Below, in pieces: positions 20,663 to 63,369 of a stretch of 64,000 nucleotides of DNA. Origin of the DNA: Shewanella loihica PV-4 (GTDB lineage Bacteria; Pseudomonadota; Gammaproteobacteria; Enterobacterales; Shewanellaceae). The notes under the pieces were generated by a model. The model was not told the origin of the DNA and did not search any database. It was given only the letters and a program-made list of their open reading frames with translations. The position numbers and the translations under genes are program-made. The stretch's first letter is position 1; each line of letters opens with the position of its first letter. The stretch covers positions 1,922,001 through 1,986,000 of the forward strand of contig NC_009092.1 of assembly GCF_000016065.1 (NCBI RefSeq), in the 5' to 3' direction.

Positions 20663-21484
20663 TCACTCGGCCTCGAAGCTGACCTCGTAGGCGGTAAATT
20701 TACGCAGGTTGATCACCCCAGTGTCGAAGATCAGGTATTGCCCCTTGATCCCGAGTAGGGTACCGCTCACTACCGGATCCTTGTCGAAGTTGTGGGAGGC
20801 TATCTTGGTGGGGAACTCGCTCACCGGATAGTCGATGGCCACTATCTCTTCATTCAACCGCTCGATGGCGTATTCGCCATGGGCCATCGCCAGGCTGTGA
20901 ATGTGCTGCTCAATCTGCGGTAGCAGCTCTTCGGCATGTTGTTTCAGCGGTAAAGGGTCGGCATTGCCTTTTAGCATGGCGCGCCAGTTGGTCTTGTCGG
21001 CGATCATCTTGGCCAGCTCCACCTCGATAAGGCCAGACAGCTGACGACTGGAGACTTTAAGGATAGGCAGGCCTTGGGTCGCACCCTGATCTATCCAGCG
21101 GGTCGGCAGCTGGGTATGGCGGGTGATCCCCACCTTGAGCCCCGAGGTGTTGGAGAGGTAGACATAATGGGGCACGAAACAGTTGGCCTCGCCCCACTCG
21201 GGTTCGCGGCAGGTCCCCTCGGCAAAGTGGCAGGTCTCGGGTTTCATGATGCACATATCGCAGCTCGCCAGCTTCTTCATGCAGACGAAGCAGTGGCCCT
21301 GGGAGTAGCTCTTCTTGGTCTTCTTACCGCAGTTGCAGCAGAAGATGTTGCCCGTATGAACCAGTTTGATACTGCTACCGATAAAGGGGTTCAGTTCGAC
21401 TTCATTGTCGCCCACTAGCAGCTGATAATTGGCCAGGCCCTGCTCATCGAGCCTGGTGCGCATTTTTCTCAAGGTTCCTTGCAT
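20663..21484 (-). CDS. DUF2797 family zinc-binding protein
   Basis: A 273-aa protein if started at the ATG at 21484, where GAGAG-type purines precede. The longer upstream frame runs into repeated DNA and is not credible. A Cys-rich region at about 60-95 (CCNCGKK, HCFVCMKK, CDMCIM, then CHFAEGTC and CFVPH) looks like two zinc sites. It is followed by HYVYLSNTSGLKVGIT and RWIDQGA, reminiscent of a GIY-YIG-like strand arrangement. The C-terminal part ends in an IKGQYLIFDTGVINLRKFTAYEV segment. The family is uncharacterised; nucleic-acid binding or nuclease activity is an inference from the motifs. Confidence 0.8.
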   Translation of the reverse strand: MQGTLRKMRTRLDEQGLANYQLLVGDNEVELNPFIGSSIKLVHTGNIFCCNCGKKTKKSYSQGHCFVCMKKLASCDMCIMKPETCHFAEGTCREPEWGEANCFVPHYVYLSNTSGLKVGITRHTQLPTRWIDQGATQGLPILKVSSRQLSGLIEVELAKMIADKTNWRAMLKGNADPLPLKQHAEELLPQIEQHIHSLAMAHGEYAIERLNEEIVAIDYPVSEFPTKIASHNFDKDPVVSGTLLGIKGQYLIFDTGVINLRKFTAYEVSFEAE

Positions 21485-21671
21485 GACACTCTCAATTGCG
21501 TTGGAGTCATACGCCGCGGCGCTGACTCTTCGTGAATTTGTGATGAGTGTAACAGTTAACGGGGGGAAGATGAAAATGGTGTTGGCAGCATCTAGATGCT
21601 GCCATGGGGGATATGGGCATTTTCCAAAGGCTGGTGGGGGAAGGTTTGGGATGTTGGAGTTTGGGTGTATA

Positions 21672-21851
21672 ACGTCTAGCGGCGTGTTGACCTGTTGAGT
21701 ACGCTTGAAAGTCGTACTTTCATGGCAACCAAACGCCTGCCCAGCGGGGGGGGCTTTGTTTGCACTTTTGCTGTTGTAGCGTCTGGCGCTGTCGTCATTG
21801 GTATATGAGTTGAAGGTCGTACCGTCATGGCAACCTATCACCTGCGGTGGG
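21672..21851. repeat. two imperfect copies of a ~75-bp repeat
   Basis: A block starting near 21673 (CGTCTAGCG, then GAAAGTCGTACTTTCATGG, CAACC, CGCCTGC) recurs from about 21780 (CGTCTGGCG, GAAGGTCGTACCGTCATGG, CAACC, ACCTGC) at roughly 106-bp spacing. It lies upstream of the DUF2797 gene and downstream of nothing coding. Origin unknown. Confidence 0.7.
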
Positions 21852-22417
21852 CTTATGTGCAGATACGCCTGTGACACGCTGTGCGCCATCTGACCTCCAT
21901 GGATGGAGGAAATGCCGAAAAATGTCGGGAACATTTTCGGCCCTGTTTCGGAAGGTCATCGGCGTATCTAAACTCGGTATCTAACGTCTCTTCGATTTGG
22001 CGGTATTGGTGTATTTAAGACGTGAAAGCTAACTGATTTTTGCCCCAAAGTGAGTTGTTGGTCAGCCAGTAAATCGCAAACTTACTACTCAACAATTTCT
22101 TATCTAAGTCCTGTTTGTGCGATTCACCACATGAAGTAGAAACTGGACAGATACACAGTCATATTTAAATTATGTGACTTTTGGGTGATTTTAAGCCTAA
22201 ATCCGTGCGCGTTTTGCCGTTATTGATAATATAACTCCCTTTAAAATCAACTGATTGCAATCTTTGTCAAGTAGATAATAGGTTTGGAAAACGCGCATGC
22301 GCGTTTTTCCAGGTGGTATATTAAGTAAAATACTGATAAGTTCATTATATACAGATAGTTAACTGTGCGCGTTTTCACTGGTCCAACGAGGTAAACGCGC
22401 ATGCGCACTAATAAAAT
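21852..22417. other. non-coding left flank of cassette array
   Basis: No convincing gene or integrase remnant is seen on either strand. From 22205 the sequence has repeated GTGCGCGTTTT / AAACGCGC elements: 22205-22215, a near-perfect palindrome 22286-22310 centred on GCATGC, 22365-22375, and 22393-22408. The last two form a hairpin of roughly ten base pairs just before the first cassette boundary. Confidence 0.6.
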
Positions 22418-22444
22418 GTTATAAATCAAAGAGAGGCTTATAGC

Positions 22445-23332
22445 ATGGCCAGACCACGGGGAGCCGTGAATGTTGTTCCGTTTGTAGACCGGGATGAAAT
22501 CTCAACGACGGAAGCGCAAGGCATAAGACATCTATCTCGCCAAGTAGAGCTTTGTGCGCAAGACCAATTTAATGCGCAATTGCGGCACCAGAAAAGCTAT
22601 CTCAACTGGATTGACTCACGACACCAACAATTGCTAGATGCCAAGCGACAGCTAGACCCAGAAGGCCGAGGGCCTAAAGATGCTGTTTATAGAAAGTATC
22701 GTTGGTACGCATCCCAGCAATGCCTCCTAGAGGCGATAAACGCATTTGAGGTTTTCTTCAAAAGCTCGTTTGTTGGGCTGGCAAAATCGATTAGAAGATA
22801 TGTTCCACCAGAAAAAATCAAAGGCAATGTTGATGCCAAAGTGCTTTGGGCTTCAAGAGGTTCGGCATCATTCACGGCACTTATATTTGAGCAGCAGCTA
22901 TTCCATAATTTAGAGAACATTGACAATGTCACCAGCATGCTGATTGGCGCAAAGCGCTACAAGCCAAATGATCTAAATAGCCCGCTACGGAAACGAGTTG
23001 TGGCAATTCAGACTATTTTTCAAATTCGGCATACTTTATCTCATAATCAAGGAAACGTTACCCAAAGTGATAGAGCCAAGTTTGCTTCTTTCGGGTACGA
23101 AGCCGAACATTCAGAAGTGATCGATCCTAGCAAGGATCATTTTGGTGATGTTGTACTAGATTTATTGAAGCAGGAGAGTAAGGAATTTACCGAATGGCTT
23201 CTAAAAAGCACAGCAAAATACCTGCTGGATCGCCATCGAAATGGCGGCATAACTTTGAAGCTCAGGATAAAAAGCCGTATTGAGAAAAATATCGGATCAC
23301 ATCCAGACATAGATGCGTTGCCATGGAGTTGA
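22445..23332 (+). CDS. HEPN-like protein, cassette 1
   Basis: A 295-aa soluble, mostly helical protein. The striking motif is RHTLSHN at 195-201, an R-x4-H followed by Asn, preceded by the helix VVAIQTIFQI and followed by GNVTQSDRAKF. This arrangement is the catalytic helix pattern of HEPN-superfamily proteins, many of which are metal-independent endoribonucleases in toxin and antiphage systems. The N-terminal 80 residues are charged and unassigned. It is the first gene after the left core site, with GAGAGG before the ATG. No partner antitoxin gene is adjacent; the next gene encodes a predicted secreted protein. RNase function is an inference from one motif. Confidence 0.65.
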   Translation: MARPRGAVNVVPFVDRDEISTTEAQGIRHLSRQVELCAQDQFNAQLRHQKSYLNWIDSRHQQLLDAKRQLDPEGRGPKDAVYRKYRWYASQQCLLEAINAFEVFFKSSFVGLAKSIRRYVPPEKIKGNVDAKVLWASRGSASFTALIFEQQLFHNLENIDNVTSMLIGAKRYKPNDLNSPLRKRVVAIQTIFQIRHTLSHNQGNVTQSDRAKFASFGYEAEHSEVIDPSKDHFGDVVLDLLKQESKEFTEWLLKSTAKYLLDRHRNGGITLKLRIKSRIEKNIGSHPDIDALPWS

Positions 23333-23333
23333 T

Positions 23334-23417
23334 TTATAACAAGCGCAGGCAATCCGACGGCTTTTCCGTTCCGCCTACGGCTACACTGCAATGCAGCGGT
23401 TGCTGCGAGCGTTATAA
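23334..23417 (+). repeat. attC site 1
   Basis: Begins TTATAAC (23334), ends GTTATAA (23411-23417), 84 bp. Inner arms GCGCAGGCAA and TTGCTGCGAGC are complementary with mismatches, as in attC hairpins. Starts two bases after the stop of cassette 1. Confidence 0.82.
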
Positions 23418-23420
23418 ACC

Positions 23421-23909
23421 ATGAATAAACTTAAGCATATCATCTCTAGTTTTCTTCTTTTTAGCGTAAGCACAAATGCTTGCCAAATTTTATCTTTCGA
23501 AGAGGAAATGGAGGACTATAAAGAAACAAAAGCTCTTGCAATAGAGCATGCTCAAAAGGCCGCTAGAGAGGCCGATACCATTTTGAAAGCACGGGTTGTA
23601 AATGTTACGGAAAGAGTAAATGACGAAAATCGCACAACTAAGTACTTTGATGTTGAACTTGATAACGTCGATGTACTTAAGGGAGCTTTTTTAGAAGGAC
23701 AGCGCCTGTTTTGGAAAGAAAACCTAGAAACAATAACTATTGGATGCAGCCAGTCAATTTTTATCGATGCCATTGATTTAATGCCTAGCTATCCTTATCT
23801 CCTGTACATCAAAGATGGAGAAATAATCAGACAAAATGATATTGGCCCTTACTTTCCAACTTTAACCGGTGAAGAAGAAATAGAATTAATCGGAGTAAAT
23901 GGCTTATAA
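23421..23909 (+). CDS. secreted NTR/TIMP-like protein, cassette 2
   Basis: A 162-aa protein with an N-terminal signal sequence (HIISSFLLFSVSTNAC). Cys21 directly follows the hydrophobic core and may be the first mature residue, though the lipobox is poor. Then come AREADTILKARVVNV, a strand pair KYFDVELDNVDVLKG, a central GCSQSIF and PYLLYIKDG. This order (early Cys, AD-x-I-x-x-x-VV, V-x-VLKG, GC, YLLY) recalls the OB-fold NTR/TIMP-like domain of small exported proteins. Function unknown. The ATG is three bases after attC 1, with no clear Shine-Dalgarno. The stop lies inside attC 2. Confidence 0.6.
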   Translation: MNKLKHIISSFLLFSVSTNACQILSFEEEMEDYKETKALAIEHAQKAAREADTILKARVVNVTERVNDENRTTKYFDVELDNVDVLKGAFLEGQRLFWKENLETITIGCSQSIFIDAIDLMPSYPYLLYIKDGEIIRQNDIGPYFPTLTGEEEIELIGVNGL

Positions 23910-24004
23910 CAAGCTGCTCAAAGTGGACAACATTACGTTGGCTCGGTTTCGCTCCGTTTCACATTTTAGCCAACATAATTTTGCCTATTAGCAGGGCGTT
24001 AGAA
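23904..24004 (+). repeat. attC site 2
   Basis: Begins TTATAAC (23904-23910, overlapping the stop codon of cassette 2) and ends GTTAGAA (23998-24004), 101 bp. Arms AAGCTGCT and AGCAGGGC are near-complementary. The interior holds a second stem-like pair TTGGCT / AGCCAA. Confidence 0.82.
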
Positions 24005-24021
24005 GGTGACAGGAGATCACA

Positions 24022-24534
24022 TTGGAATTTTGGAATGAATTTAAAAATAGTGTTGCCGTCGCATTACTTTTTTTGTTACTAGGCTTCATCGGTGGTGTTG
24101 GAGCTTACAAATATCTGTCTGATTTCTTTAACGCAGATGTGGTTCTAAAAGGCTCTTATGTTTATAAAACAGATATAGAAAAACAGTTCATTAGTGCTGA
24201 ACTATACGAAAAAGCTCTTAAACGAATTGAGGGTCTAGAAACTAAAAACGCTGATTTAAAGTCCAACAATGATAGTCTTAGAGCTAGTGTATCTGAGTTT
24301 TCGAGATCGATTTGCCAAAGATATGCATCAGAGGCCAATTCTATTATCGATGAACAAAGAGAAGTAGAAGATAGCATACAAAATGCATTGTCTTTATTCA
24401 TTTCATACAGTAAAAAAGATGAGGAGCGGCTTGCAGCTGATAAAGAAAAAGCGATTGAGTTAAGAAAATATTCGGCACAACTTAATGAGCAGCTTATTCA
24501 GGTCAGAGAAAAAATTTCTAAATGTGTAAAGTAG
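24022..24534 (+). CDS. membrane-anchored coiled-coil protein, cassette 3
   Basis: A 170-aa protein that begins at TTG 24022, strongly supported by AGGAG seven bases upstream. One transmembrane helix (about 12-33, VALLFLLLGFIGGVGAYKYL) is followed by a long charged helical region (about 52-170) with heptad-like Leu/Ile spacing, suggesting a coiled coil. Cys residues near 93 and 168 are isolated. No family is recognised. It could be a phage- or stress-related membrane protein, but nothing shows this directly. Confidence 0.6.
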   Translation: MEFWNEFKNSVAVALLFLLLGFIGGVGAYKYLSDFFNADVVLKGSYVYKTDIEKQFISAELYEKALKRIEGLETKNADLKSNNDSLRASVSEFSRSICQRYASEANSIIDEQREVEDSIQNALSLFISYSKKDEERLAADKEKAIELRKYSAQLNEQLIQVREKISKCVK

Positions 24535-24535
24535 C

Positions 24536-24572
24536 TTCTAACAAAGCTGCGCCTATGCTAGCGGCGTTATAA
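24536..24572 (+). repeat. attC site 3, very short (37 bp)
   Basis: TTCTAAC (24536-24542) to GTTATAA (24566-24572), only 37 bp. The arms AAGCTGC and GCGGC pair with one G-T, leaving a loop of about ten bases. Known attC sites are usually at least about 57 bp, so this is a minimal or internally deleted site. The following bases ATCAAAG repeat those after the array's left core. Confidence 0.72.
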
Positions 24573-24594
24573 ATCAAAGCAAGACTGGGGGAAC

Positions 24595-25542
24595 ATGCAG
24601 ACACAAACTGAAAGACTAGGAGTATCCAAGCTAGATCACTACTTTTCTTCTCATGGATGGCTTTTCAGAGAGCAAATGGTACATGATTATGGAATAGATG
24701 CTCATGTCGAGACTACAAACGAGAATTACCCTACGGGCCAGCTAATTGCGATACAGATAAAGTCTGGAATGAGCTTTTTCTCAGAAGAAAATGAAAACTC
24801 ATATATTTTTAGAACAGAAGATAAACATATCGAATATTGGTCTAATCACACGCTCCCAGTAATTTTAGTTTTATACAACACTGATGATGACATTTTGTAT
24901 TGGCAAGATGTAAATGAAGATACTGTTATATCCACTGGCAAAGGGTGGAAAATTGAAGTTCCTAAAACTCATGTTCTGGATGATCGAAGCCTAATAGCCT
25001 TTAGTAAACTTACTCAGCCCGAACCATATATACAGAAACTTAATAAGTTAAAACTAGATCGCTATTGGATGGAGAAGATAACCAAAGGCTATGAAGTTTT
25101 TGTAGAGTTTGATGACTGGATAAATAAGTCGCTGAGCAGGTACCAAATCAGACTTAGCTGTGAGGATGAAAGCCAGCATTGGCCAATGACCTATTGTCCA
25201 GGCATGTCGATTGAAGAGGCTCTCGAATTTTTCCTACCTTGGGCAGATTTTCGAATGGATATCGAGGCCCATCGTGAAGGCAGTATTGGGCAATGGGATG
25301 CCGAGTGCTATATGACTTACGACAAGGAAGAAGGAAGAGCAATACATGGTATGTCATTTGACGAATGGTACAACGAACCTGAGGGTATAGTTCCATATCA
25401 GGAAGACGGTGAAATAGCCTCTTACCGAATACAGTTAGAGCTAAACGAACTTGGTAGGTCATTCATGGAAATCGACGGCTTTCTATCCGAAAAAAGCAAA
25501 TTCCAAGGGAAAACATTCACTACAGATGATTTGCAGTGGTAA
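24595..25542 (+). CDS. DUF4365 domain protein, cassette 4
   Basis: A 315-aa protein whose first 150 residues match the DUF4365 pattern: LGVSKLDHYFSSHGWLFREQ, DYGIDAHVE (31-39), QLIAIQIKSG (49-58), then HIEYWSNHTLPVILVLYN and YWQDV. The D-x-x-x-D, then Q-I-K arrangement (Asp35, Gln54, Lys56) resembles the metal site of PD-(D/E)xK nuclease-like folds, in which DUF4365 has been placed. The C-terminal half (about 160-315) is acidic and unassigned. GGGGGA precedes the ATG. DUF4365 genes are common on mobile elements. Nuclease activity and defence role are inferences. Confidence 0.72.
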   Translation: MQTQTERLGVSKLDHYFSSHGWLFREQMVHDYGIDAHVETTNENYPTGQLIAIQIKSGMSFFSEENENSYIFRTEDKHIEYWSNHTLPVILVLYNTDDDILYWQDVNEDTVISTGKGWKIEVPKTHVLDDRSLIAFSKLTQPEPYIQKLNKLKLDRYWMEKITKGYEVFVEFDDWINKSLSRYQIRLSCEDESQHWPMTYCPGMSIEEALEFFLPWADFRMDIEAHREGSIGQWDAECYMTYDKEEGRAIHGMSFDEWYNEPEGIVPYQEDGEIASYRIQLELNELGRSFMEIDGFLSEKSKFQGKTFTTDDLQW

Positions 25543-25546
25543 AAAT

Positions 25547-25624
25547 TTATAACAAAGCCAGCCAGAGGGACCCAAAAACCACCGCTTCGCTCTGGTTTTT
25601 CGGCCCCTGCTAGCGGCGTTAGCT
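25547..25624 (+). repeat. attC site 4
   Basis: Begins TTATAAC (25547-25553) and ends GTTAGCT (25618-25624), 78 bp. The arms AAAGCCAGCCAGAGGG and CCCCTGCTAGCGGC give the long imperfect stem expected of attC. Confidence 0.85.
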
Positions 25625-25643
25625 GTACTGAAGGGGGAACGGG

Positions 25644-25985
25644 TTGCGATTTATATTCTGTATATTAGTAGTTTTAATCGTTCTCGCTGGGTGTACGAAT
25701 CGACCTTATCAACAATTGCCAAGCGAATTGGTTGAAGATGAAAATGCTGACGGAATGCATATAGGGTACAAAGAAACTCTACTTAGTGACGAAAAGTGGT
25801 TGATTGAGTACCATGGTCTGGAATCTTGGAAGAATGAAGAACTTAGACATTACTTGATTAGAAGGGCTGGAGAACTGTGCTCGGGGGATTTTGCTCTTTC
25901 CAAATATAACGAGCTCTTTTCGGTAGTTGCTCACCGAAAACCGATACTCGTCAAGTACACTCAAGCAGAAGTTAAATGCAACTAG
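25644..25985 (+). CDS. small lipoprotein, cassette 5
   Basis: A 113-aa lipoprotein starting at TTG 25644, with AAGGGGGA at a fitting distance upstream. The signal peptide FIFCILVVLIVLAGC ends in lipobox LAGC (Cys17). The mature part has LESWKNEELRHYLIRRAGELC and two further Cys residues (one in GELCSG, one near the end in KCN) that could form a disulphide. No function is recognised. Small lipoproteins of this style are frequent cassette cargo. Confidence 0.7.
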   Translation: MRFIFCILVVLIVLAGCTNRPYQQLPSELVEDENADGMHIGYKETLLSDEKWLIEYHGLESWKNEELRHYLIRRAGELCSGDFALSKYNELFSVVAHRKPILVKYTQAEVKCN

Positions 25986-25995
25986 ATGCGTATAC

Positions 25996-26110
25996 AGCTA
26001 ACAAACGCATTAACACTCGCTGCGCTCGCTGGGGACAAAAACACGTAGGCTCCCTCGCTTAGCTCGTTATTATAGTCTACGTATTTTTGCCCGTTATGCG
26101 GGCGTTAGGT
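25996..26110 (+). repeat. attC site 5
   Basis: Begins AGCTAAC (25996-26002) and ends GTTAGGT (26104-26110), 115 bp. Outer arms AAACGCAT and ATGCGGGC are near-complementary, and the middle has further pairing (ACGTAGGC with GTCTACGT). Confidence 0.85.
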
Positions 26111-26144
26111 TACTTGTGAGGCACTCTGCCAACCAAGAAGAGTT

Positions 26145-26657
26145 ATGGACATAAAAAGCTATCGACTAAAAATTTCAGAAGCTAACTTTTTCTTGGAGTT
26201 GATAACTGCCCTTGAAAAGCGAGGAAACTCACTTACTCATCACGATAACCCTGATGAGGAGGCTTCTTTTTTGCTCAGTGCGGTACTCAACACCCTCTAC
26301 TCTGCAACGGAAATGCTGGGTGGAAAACAAGAGCCTATGGTGAAAAAATTTCGAGAATCACATCCTCTATTTTACGCAGGCTCTGGTAAAGGAGGTTTGA
26401 GAAATACAACTGTTCATGTTACTCACGTGGAAGCTGCAAGTCTTGGTAGATTGCCACAAAAATCTCCTGGTTCAGTTCGATTAAATTTTGAGAGAACCCC
26501 AAAGTTGATTCAGGAGAAAGCAACGTCACAAGGTCGGCTTACCCTAAACTTCACCCCTATTTTCGTTGTTGAAATCGATGGTCAAGTTGAGAGAATTGTA
26601 GACCTTGTTTCGACGCAGATTTTCGAGCTTGGAAAACTTGTGCTGGACGTAACCTAA
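26145..26657 (+). CDS. HEPN-like small protein, cassette 6
   Basis: A 170-aa helical protein. LRNTTVHVTH contains Arg86-Asn87 and His91, an RNxxxH arrangement typical of HEPN catalytic helices, after a predicted helical bundle (SFLLSAVLNTLYSATEMLGG) and an FRESHP segment. The C-terminal third is beta-rich (RLTLNFTPIFVVEIDGQVERIVDLV). It could be an RNase toxin, or a HEPN-fold protein without catalysis. It has no obvious antitoxin partner; the next cassette encodes an Imm8-like protein. Recognition rests on the motif and helix context, so it is less certain than the family label suggests. Confidence 0.58.
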   Translation: MDIKSYRLKISEANFFLELITALEKRGNSLTHHDNPDEEASFLLSAVLNTLYSATEMLGGKQEPMVKKFRESHPLFYAGSGKGGLRNTTVHVTHVEAASLGRLPQKSPGSVRLNFERTPKLIQEKATSQGRLTLNFTPIFVVEIDGQVERIVDLVSTQIFELGKLVLDVT

Positions 26658-26744
26658 CAAACGCATCAAGTCGCTCGCAAGCTCGCTGGGACATCAAAAC
26701 TAATCGCCGCTACATTTTGCTCACCCCTTAACAGAGCGTTATAC
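26652..26744 (+). repeat. attC site 6
   Basis: Begins ACCTAAC (26652-26658, overlapping the stop of cassette 6) and ends GTTATAC (26738-26744), 93 bp. Its interior (ACGCATCAAGTCGCTCGC) resembles that of attC 5 (ACGCATTAACACTCGC), so the two sites are relatives. Confidence 0.8.
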
Positions 26745-26749
26745 ACCAA

Positions 26750-27097
26750 ATGAATAATTTCGTTCCCGTCATCAGAAGTTTTGACTGTTCAGACTTTGAT
26801 CCTATTGATAAATGGATATTTGAAGATCCAGCGGAAGTAGATTTCTGGTTAAATATTTCTGTTGGAGCAGAAGGAATGAAGGGAACCTATGACTTTCAGG
26901 TCCATGTGATAACACAAAAATCTCTGTCTCAATCGACCGATAAAGGCCATCTCCTTGTATTGCCTTATTATTCTTGGGATGAGACTTTAAAGGAATTAAA
27001 TAAAGTTCTTTCCAATTGCGCTGACGTTAGTTGGGAAGGAATGTTTAGGCAAATTTCCAAACACTATGGTTGGGAATACGAATGGACGCATCGGTAA
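26750..27097 (+). CDS. Imm8-like immunity protein, cassette 7
   Basis: A 115-aa acidic cytoplasmic protein resembling immunity protein family Imm8. It has FWLNISVGAEGMKGTYDFQVHVITQ in the first half, then GHLLVLPYYSWDETLKELNKVL, C-x-DVSWEGMF and the terminal WEYEWTH. Imm8 members protect against polymorphic or contact-delivered toxins. No toxin gene is adjacent, so this is an orphan immunity gene. The ATG follows five bases after attC 6 without a recognisable Shine-Dalgarno, typical of cassettes read from an external promoter. Confidence 0.68.
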   Translation: MNNFVPVIRSFDCSDFDPIDKWIFEDPAEVDFWLNISVGAEGMKGTYDFQVHVITQKSLSQSTDKGHLLVLPYYSWDETLKELNKVLSNCADVSWEGMFRQISKHYGWEYEWTHR

Positions 27098-27102
27098 ATG
27101 GT

Positions 27103-27189
27103 GTATAACAAGTTGCGTAAGTTTGCCCAAACAGCGGGCGGGACAAATACTCGCGGGGCTCGCATTTGCCCCTTCGTAAAGCGTTATCC
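27103..27189 (+). repeat. attC site 7 (last)
   Basis: Begins GTATAAC (27103-27109) and ends GTTATCC (27183-27189), 87 bp. Arms AAGTTGCGTAAGTTTG and CCTTCGTAAAGC are partly complementary. No further cassette gene follows, so this is the right end of the array. Confidence 0.8.
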
Positions 27190-27412
27190 CATAGAAATTT
27201 TTATCCGAAACTGACAGGTTAGAGTTAAGGCTTTAACTCGAAAATGTCCAAAAACAACTTAGGTTTAGGTGGGGAGTCACTAAGTTTTCATTCGATTCGG
27301 GTAAGCTGACGAGGTGTTTAACGCTGAACTATCTCATGTCATGTCGATTTTGATACGTTAGCGTCAGTCATCTGCCTAGTTTGGTGTGAGAATTGATTAC
27401 TGTCGATGCAGA
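27190..27412. other. non-coding right flank of cassette array
   Basis: About 220 bp with no supported gene, between the last attC and the terminator of the broken outer-membrane-protein gene. No repeat or recombination site is evident. Confidence 0.5.
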
Positions 27413-27441
27413 TAAAAAAAAGCCGCGGCGGGCGCCGCGGC
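27413..27441 (-). terminator. minus-strand terminator of the truncated OMP gene
   Basis: GC-only stem GCCGCGG / CCGCGGC followed, on the minus strand, by eight T. It lies 58 bases beyond the stop codon of the vestigial gene at 27499 and has no other gene to serve. Confidence 0.82.
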
Positions 27442-27498
27442 AATGACCTCATCCAGGGGCTTTTGCCCGGGACTTTCTTCCTTACCTCAATCGATATC

Positions 27499-27591
27499 TT
27501 AGAAGCTGTAACGTGCGCCAATGGAGTAACGGGCGGCGTTTTGCTGTGCTAGCAGCATCTGCTCCTCGTAACAGTTTGCAGACCTAGGCAC
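27499..27591 (-). pseudogene. 3-prime remnant of an outer membrane protein gene
   Basis: Reading the minus strand, the last 22 codons before the TAA at 27499 give EEQMLLAQQN followed by AARYSIGARYSF, ending in the aromatic-x-x-F pattern of a beta-barrel (TonB receptor or porin) C-terminus. Upstream the frame closes at a stop within eight more codons after unrelated sequence (VPRSANCY). The rest of the gene is gone while its terminator remains. This marks a deletion or insertion event beside the cassette array. Confidence 0.65.
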
Positions 27592-63116: not shown

Positions 63117-63185
63117 TGGATCACGCGCAAATATTGCGTTAAATATGTCAACTCTTTGTATGAGTCATGTATAATCGGCCTCGCC

Positions 63186-63284
63186 AAGGGGTGTTAACGC
63201 CAAGCCATAGCTTAGCGATTGACTGAGATGTCCGCGGGACGAACCCTTAGAACCTGATCCGGCTAATACCGGCGTAGGAATGGG
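63186..63284 (+). ncRNA. TPP riboswitch (THI element)
   Basis: Conserved blocks in order: AAGGGGTGTT at 63186, ACTGAGATG at 63222, then ACCCTTAGAACCTGATCCGG and CTAATACCGGCGTAGGAA ending near 63281. It senses thiamine pyrophosphate. It sits 86 bases before a TonB receptor gene, so it should shut off that receptor when thiamine is ample. Confidence 0.95.
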
Positions 63285-63369
63285 CCACATCACTAGATTT
63301 AACACAATCTGTCTGTGCATTCTTTCTCGCTTTCTTAAGTGCCGGATCTCAATATTGATTTGAGGTCCT

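Follow-up and report, generated by a model that had tools for sequence, protein, structure and literature searches.

Background

An integron is usually pictured as one integrase gene (intI), one attI site and one array of cassettes, and its life as over once intI is lost. In this work we describe a seven-cassette array with no adjacent integrase gene, at positions 22418-27189 of a 64,000-nucleotide stretch of the Shewanella loihica PV-4 chromosome (NC_009092.1, 1,922,001 to 1,986,000), analysed as a whole and called here the window. The locus is a cluster of attC sites lacking an integrase (CALIN) headed by attI, and one dock, as we call a place occupied by an attI leader, of a dispersed multi-attI integron.

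The closest described systems share some of these features. CALINs are reported from most Shewanella strains, and single attC sites lacking an integrase (SALINs) from 41 genomes, with and without intI (PMC9229058); as here, attC cassettes lie away from intI, also in 26 complete genomes without intI. Those CALINs reach six attC sites, whereas the present array has seven and is headed by an exact attI, and the passages of that paper considered here make no mention of attI at CALINs. In the CALIN of prophage M16-3 (PMC9892861), the same 28-base attI heads an array without its own intI; there, however, one extra attI is described and a complete integron is also present, whereas here ten copies are found in a genome with no integron integrase (IntI) over the cut-off, and many copies also occur in other genomes of the genus. 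The core is one base off the site of S. oneidensis MR-1, as given in PMC9892861, and thus resembles that of the S. oneidensis-type integron, whose integrase, SonIntIA, accepts attC sites of varied sequence when assayed (PMC3053210); unlike that integron, the array has no integrase gene beside it.

Other precedents are more distant. Insertion at attG sites (Loot et al. 2024, as cited in PMC11023631) also places cassettes away from a home integron, but attG sites are not attI, which is present at this locus. The delta-attI cassettes of mobile integrons (PMC12901181) likewise bring attI sequence outside its usual place, although as pieces within single cassettes, whereas here whole leaders are dispersed. 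In contrast, in a Xanthomonas citri pathovar (PMC12444791) the intI-less CALINs are described as all having the same two cassettes, over a shorter span of divergence.

An earlier examination of the DNA letters (the sequence-only reading) had proposed this array as the best place in the window for an undescribed system, which is right only in part: integrase-less arrays were already known in Shewanella (PMC9229058). In the open-licence papers searched, no report was found of attI multiplied through a chromosome, nor of cassette turnover at docks after loss of intI. Dispersed CALINs and one attI-headed CALIN are already in print; the multiplication of attI through a chromosome looks new.

The array and its attI

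Seven open reading frames (ORFs) on the plus strand alternate with seven attC sites (Table 1), in agreement with the sequence-only reading. All seven sites match our attC covariance model, R1, as bottom-strand folds (E 1.7e-9 to 0.002, to be taken as rough values); the stem of the model has an extrahelical column, and two sites are weak, namely the very short site 3 and site 6, whose inner stem has three mismatches. Up to E 5, the window holds a single other match, partial and inside gene 4 (E 0.18). R1 was trained on 48 of 61 attC-like sites from intI-adjacent stretches of other Shewanella genomes, the window sites not being among them, and joined arms were aligned, because the seven sites had aligned poorly at full length. 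In the training sites 87.5% of the cells pair, against 64.8% in shuffles, a control which is biased, because these sites had been picked for complementary arms.

A structure-aware scan detected six of the seven sites, missing the short site 3, and no attC site on either strand of the 57 kb that flank the array in the window. The pair TAAC[A/G]A...[G/T]CGTTA, within 150 bases, occurs eight times on the plus strand of the window, seven of them in the array, and once on the minus strand; under a first-order Markov model, the array would hold 0.14 such pairs (maximum 2 in 500) and each strand of the whole window 0.8 (maximum 5 in 100). Early scans for arms, either too strict or too lax, were superseded by R1 and the structure-aware scan. 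R1 itself depends on its settings: with filters off it drops long sites, most window sites among them, while under default filters two evident sites at L166 escaped it, both found by the structure-aware scan. In the whole-genome scan with R1, 150 of 2130 candidates were scored and just two of the seven window sites reported, so that the genome count of attC sites is a lower bound.

The constant ends of the seven sites read TAACAA...GCGTTA. The complementary arms noticed earlier are confirmed by the R1 folds, but the literal end GTTRRRY, as first proposed, fits only one site. The first core does recur exactly after the third site, GTTATAAATCAAAG being found at both 22418 and 24566, and the array is indeed richer in AT than its surroundings (GC 41.2%, versus 55.0% in the 10 kb to one side and 52.0% in the 10 kb to the other). 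The array has no Rfam match at gathering scores; a check for a cassette promoter (Pc) counted 10 promoter-like sites in 22000-27450, versus 11.8 in shuffles; and matches to plasmids cover at most 4% of the array length, at attC sites.

The left boundary of the array is attI, not attC, a point missed by the sequence-only reading, as was the place of this array among roughly ten such loci. Crossover is expected between G22418 and T22419. From 22273 to the crossover, the leader is identical to intI-side leaders at 97% in G013, 92% in G073, 88% in G036 and G015, 87% in G061 and 77% in G053, all of them other Shewanella genomes of our sample. Among 37 aligned leader copies from five genomes, that of S. 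loihica included, 35 end with the crossover GTT (L168 has ATT and L195 AAT), and the sequence past this point varies, save at four docks of G013 sharing their first sequence. A LexA-box-like site near the leader aligns with the box on the intI-promoter side of intI-bearing copies; its strict form is found in only 18 of the 37.

The four G013 docks (L096, L172, L173 and L174), one of which is beside intI, are followed by nearly identical first sequences, and one cassette may therefore sit at all of them.

Had the cassettes been inserted at a genomic site other than attI, the array would be an ordinary off-target CALIN. Scattered CALINs and SALINs are common in Shewanella (PMC9229058), and five attC sites elsewhere in the chromosome, listed below, fit such insertions, with attG as a possible target. 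At this locus, attG insertion is refuted by the exact attI core, lying at the start of the array in a leader of about 150 bp common to intI-adjacent integrons, and we regard it as very improbable.

Dispersal of attI in the chromosome and in the genus

The attI leader is found at about ten places of the S. loihica chromosome, most of them followed by attC cassettes of their own, oriented as at an attI. Searching for the 28-base core with up to three mismatches returned ten copies in this genome (one contig of 4,602,594 bases) and 167 in 40 of 97 sampled Shewanella genomes, with up to 13 copies per genome; the pattern read backward, used as a control, had zero occurrences in the 97. With the 231-base leader as query, ten matches longer than 120 bases were obtained in S. 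loihica, and partial ones at two more places; the longer copies are 75-94% identical to that of the window.

Eight of the ten cores are followed by attC sites in the attI orientation. R1 found 23 such sites at seven cores and the structure-aware scan 23 at eight, their union being 28. When the latter scan was applied to 18 docks of S. loihica and G070, the closest of the 97 genomes by its EamA gene, same-strand sites were detected at 15, together with one opposite-strand match.

A multicopy leader might also be a repeat similar to a miniature inverted-repeat transposable element (MITE), merely lying beside the array and unrelated to integron recombination. It contains GCGCGTTTT inverted repeats and adjoins a repeat family (21795-22030) for which at least 81 genomic matches were counted, 40 of 61 candidates having been scored; a search for terminal inverted repeats and a target duplication gave weak inverted matches from one flank to the other at 8 of the 11 docks tested, and no clear ends in the comparison with empty sites. 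As stated, we hold this explanation to be hardly credible, and refuted: leader conservation ends at the crossover, the leader occupies the attI position next to intI elsewhere, and its last 28 bases are the published attI. The leader may nonetheless have been spread by a transposition-like process.

Similar leaders were found on plasmids (21 records) and in a prophage, and are hence not confined to chromosomes. In the IncC plasmid pN069_1 of Enterobacter hormaechei (L226, 4001-4779), a Shewanella-type leader is followed after 20 bp by fosG, with an attC site behind; in a Moellerella wisconsensis plasmid (L228, 4001-5266), it heads dfrA1 with two attC sites. Both are conjugative plasmids. The same leader match is present in three further records, from Citrobacter and E. 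coli.

Absence of an integrase and an intI remnant

Integrases were searched with the integron integrase model TIGR02249 at its family cut-off. As the sequence-only reading had stated for the window, no IntI was found over the cut-off, either there or in the whole genome. Six stretches of the genome match below the cut-off: four belong to two genes, XerD and XerC, which score best and have nothing aligned to the middle of the model; a distant tyrosine recombinase accounts for the fifth, and the sixth is a weak match (E 2.7e-4) in a 212-aa frame. IntI is over the cut-off in 55 of the 97 genomes, S. loihica being counted in the sample; among the 16 genomes that carry at least five cores, eight have such an IntI and eight have none. 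No IntI was found in G070 at E 1e-40.

A remnant of intI does exist, 1.8 Mb away from the array. At the leader copy at 3742910, on the other side of the leader, lies a 23-codon intI start (MSLKSPFLIGVQETMRMRGYSIR), similar to the beginning of intI in G013 and G061, after which a junction leads into unrelated sequence. The junction is identical in S. loihica and G070, and the gene was therefore most likely broken before the two lines split.

The array could then be the frozen relic of a complete local integron, which lost its own intI and no longer exchanges cassettes. A LexA-box-like site is kept where complete copies have the box beside intI, and the uniform CALINs of the Xanthomonas pathovar have been read as early inactivation (PMC12444791). 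However, no intI start is present in the sequence to the left of the leader, the only stub seen being that at the other copy, and attI-proximal cassettes are unlike at six paired docks of S. loihica and G070, which share the stub. A frozen relic is accordingly an improbable description of the locus.

Cassette turnover at docks

G070 carries the same leader at the same place, followed by another array, in which none of the seven window cassette proteins could be found (tblastn, E 1e-5); the cassette genes are thus not fixed among relatives. By means of host flanks, six docks of S. loihica were paired with docks of G070, of whose 11 cores eight were compared; four S. loihica docks stayed unpaired. 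In the six pairs, the last 120 bases ahead of the crossover are 89-98% identical and the first 120 past it 43-51%, the anchor of dock L167 being three bases late in this comparison, while the longest matching stretch of host flank reaches 93-96% and shorter pieces of flank range from 87% upward. Attention to the cassettes next to attI gives a uniform result, since they differ at all six paired docks. As the two genomes share the broken stub, refilling of these docks went on after this intI was broken. In the pair at 678 kb, the distal 1.46 kb of the array is common to both genomes (97% identity) and the difference is confined to the attI-proximal part, a polarity that insertion at attI would produce.

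Homologous recombination, either from dock to dock or with DNA arriving from outside, might have achieved the turnover, since the leader and the right-hand sequence of the dock provide homologous arms by which arrays could be swapped; this is an objection to insertion by an integrase. The longer leader copies show 75-94% identity to that of the window, the right-hand sequence is common to the distal end of several arrays, and replaced segments end at the arms. Nevertheless, in the pair L162/L185 only the attI-proximal part has been replaced, with a boundary inside the attC end, as insertion predicts, although homologous exchange could do likewise. Moreover, when nine S. loihica docks were used as queries, no whole array was met at another dock; matches of at least 140 bases at other docks were limited to 181-182 bases of L163, present in L184 and L186 (95%), and 340 bases of L164, present in L195 (70%). 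We consider homologous exchange unlikely, though a more serious alternative than those above, and prefer an integrase acting in trans as the agent of refilling.

The array, in our view, very probably lies on a genuine attI without an adjacent integrase gene, at one of many docks filled by attI x attC recombination. On its anatomy and the known reaction, a SonIntI-type integrase would have inserted the cassettes at the G|TT of each attI, using the folded bottom strand of attC. Filling continued after the stub intI was broken, most likely through an integrase supplied in trans, possibly from another copy, since lost, or from an incoming element.

Several observations weigh against this account. 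No trans-acting integrase can be named, and a second ancestral intI, lost later in both lines, would also suffice; G051, with an 83% match to the same 301-base stub query, carries further intI matches in addition to the stub, one of them over the cut-off. No attC site was found by R1 or the structure-aware scan after the cores at 3246231 and 2193319, nor after a diverged copy at 3689893, and two of the 28 sites counted above, at 692 kb, are weak. Five attC sites (C1:866070, 1055114, 1186679, 3384314 and 3384762) have no attI core in the surrounding stretch, for which reason some cassettes seem to have been inserted elsewhere. Finally, 39 of the 55 IntI-bearing genomes have no such core, and the multicopy pattern consequently describes one type of attI and not all Shewanella integrons.

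A broader proposal, which we advance tentatively and rate slightly below an even chance, is that Shewanella chromosomes act as a distributed integron, with up to 13 attI docks, each with its own leader and independently filled by one resident or visiting integrase in trans, and that even genomes without intI go on exchanging cassettes, at many sites simultaneously. That S. loihica and G070, both without IntI over the cut-off, have turned over their attI-proximal cassettes challenges the view of intI loss as an end point. Dispersed docks would account in part for the scattered attC cassettes reported from Shewanella, would change how integrase-less genomes are scored for cassette exchange, and would offer a natural test of integrase action in trans; dispersion and turnover after intI loss are the points worth the attention of specialists.

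Cassette genes and neighbourhood of the locus

Table 1. Features of the attI-headed array and its left and right borders (window positions)
Feature	Position	Strand	Description
Repeats of about 100 bp with imperfect hairpin	21705..22030		Precede the leader on its left; several other leader copies have similar stretches on that side
LexA-box-like CTGN10CAG	22143..22158		Aligns with box on intI-promoter side in intI-bearing copies
Leader with attI	22205..22420	+	22273-22420 common to intI-adjacent leaders of other Shewanella
attI core	22393..22420	+	Exact match to published Shewanella-type attI (PMC9892861)
Cassette 1	22419..23411	+	ORF 22445-23332, 295 aa, no family; attC1 23334-23417
Cassette 2	23412..23998	+	ORF 23421-23909, 162 aa, no family; attC2 23904-24004
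Cassette 3	23999..24566	+	ORF 24022-24534, 170 aa, no match over cut-off; very short attC3 24536-24572
Cassette 4	24567..25618	+	ORF 24595-25542, 315 aa, DUF4365; attC4 25547-25624
Cassette 5	25619..26104	+	ORF 25644-25985, 113 aa, CC0125/CC1285-like lipoprotein; attC5 25996-26110
Cassette 6	26105..26738	+	ORF 26145-26657, 170 aa, no family; attC6 26652-26744
Cassette 7	26739..27183	+	ORF 26750-27097, 115 aa, Imm8; attC7 27103-27189
Right-hand sequence of dock	27184..27254	+	Common to distal ends of several other arrays

The cassette genes had been described as of unknown or defence-like type, and most are in fact without assignment: family searches gave no match over a cut-off for genes 1, 2, 3 and 6. 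The family matches of note are DUF4365 in gene 4 (1.6e-38), Imm8 in gene 7 (1.5e-15) and, just under its cut-off (37.7 bits versus 40), the lipoprotein family of gene 5. Residues 7-143 of the gene 4 product are also similar to the PADLOC family Aga_REase-PNTD, which we take to be Argonaute-associated. By eye, gene 3 features a membrane segment and a coiled coil. A relative of gene 6 (34%) occurs in Shewanella sp. ANA-3 (L043), where a lax pattern places attC-like sites to its left and right; R1 backs only the next site along (L043 19333-19404).

Three other genomes, G048, G040 and G050, have neither the leader core nor an attC array at this place; in them, a short stretch separates the DUF2797 gene from the end of its neighbour, a gene assigned to the outer-membrane type on its sequence and not from a search, whereas S. 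loihica and G070 have the dock between the two. In the comparison of relatives, a weak 26-base match to the model was seen in L080 (E 0.22). Part of the right-hand sequence is kept in S. marisflavi, with no attI core in the stretch compared; in S. insulae and S. aquimarina the left repeats are kept, and no attI core is found in the stretches, both of which are cut short by a contig end.

The distance from the array to the EamA gene is about 12 kb longer in G070; at this point (27572/27627) S. loihica keeps only the end of a neighbouring gene, at about 27408-27572, and therefore seems to have lost the stretch. The EamA gene of G040 (C1:1143420-1184973) is interrupted, its two pieces lying about 40 kb from each other, as though by the insertion of an element. 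On the other side of the dock, the DUF2797 ORF, as listed (20663-21934, minus strand), starts within the repeat region; homology with relatives begins only at about residue 110-150, and the true start is therefore probably near 21545. A thiamine pyrophosphate (TPP) riboswitch was recognized at 63177-63297 of the window, with a score of 70 bits.

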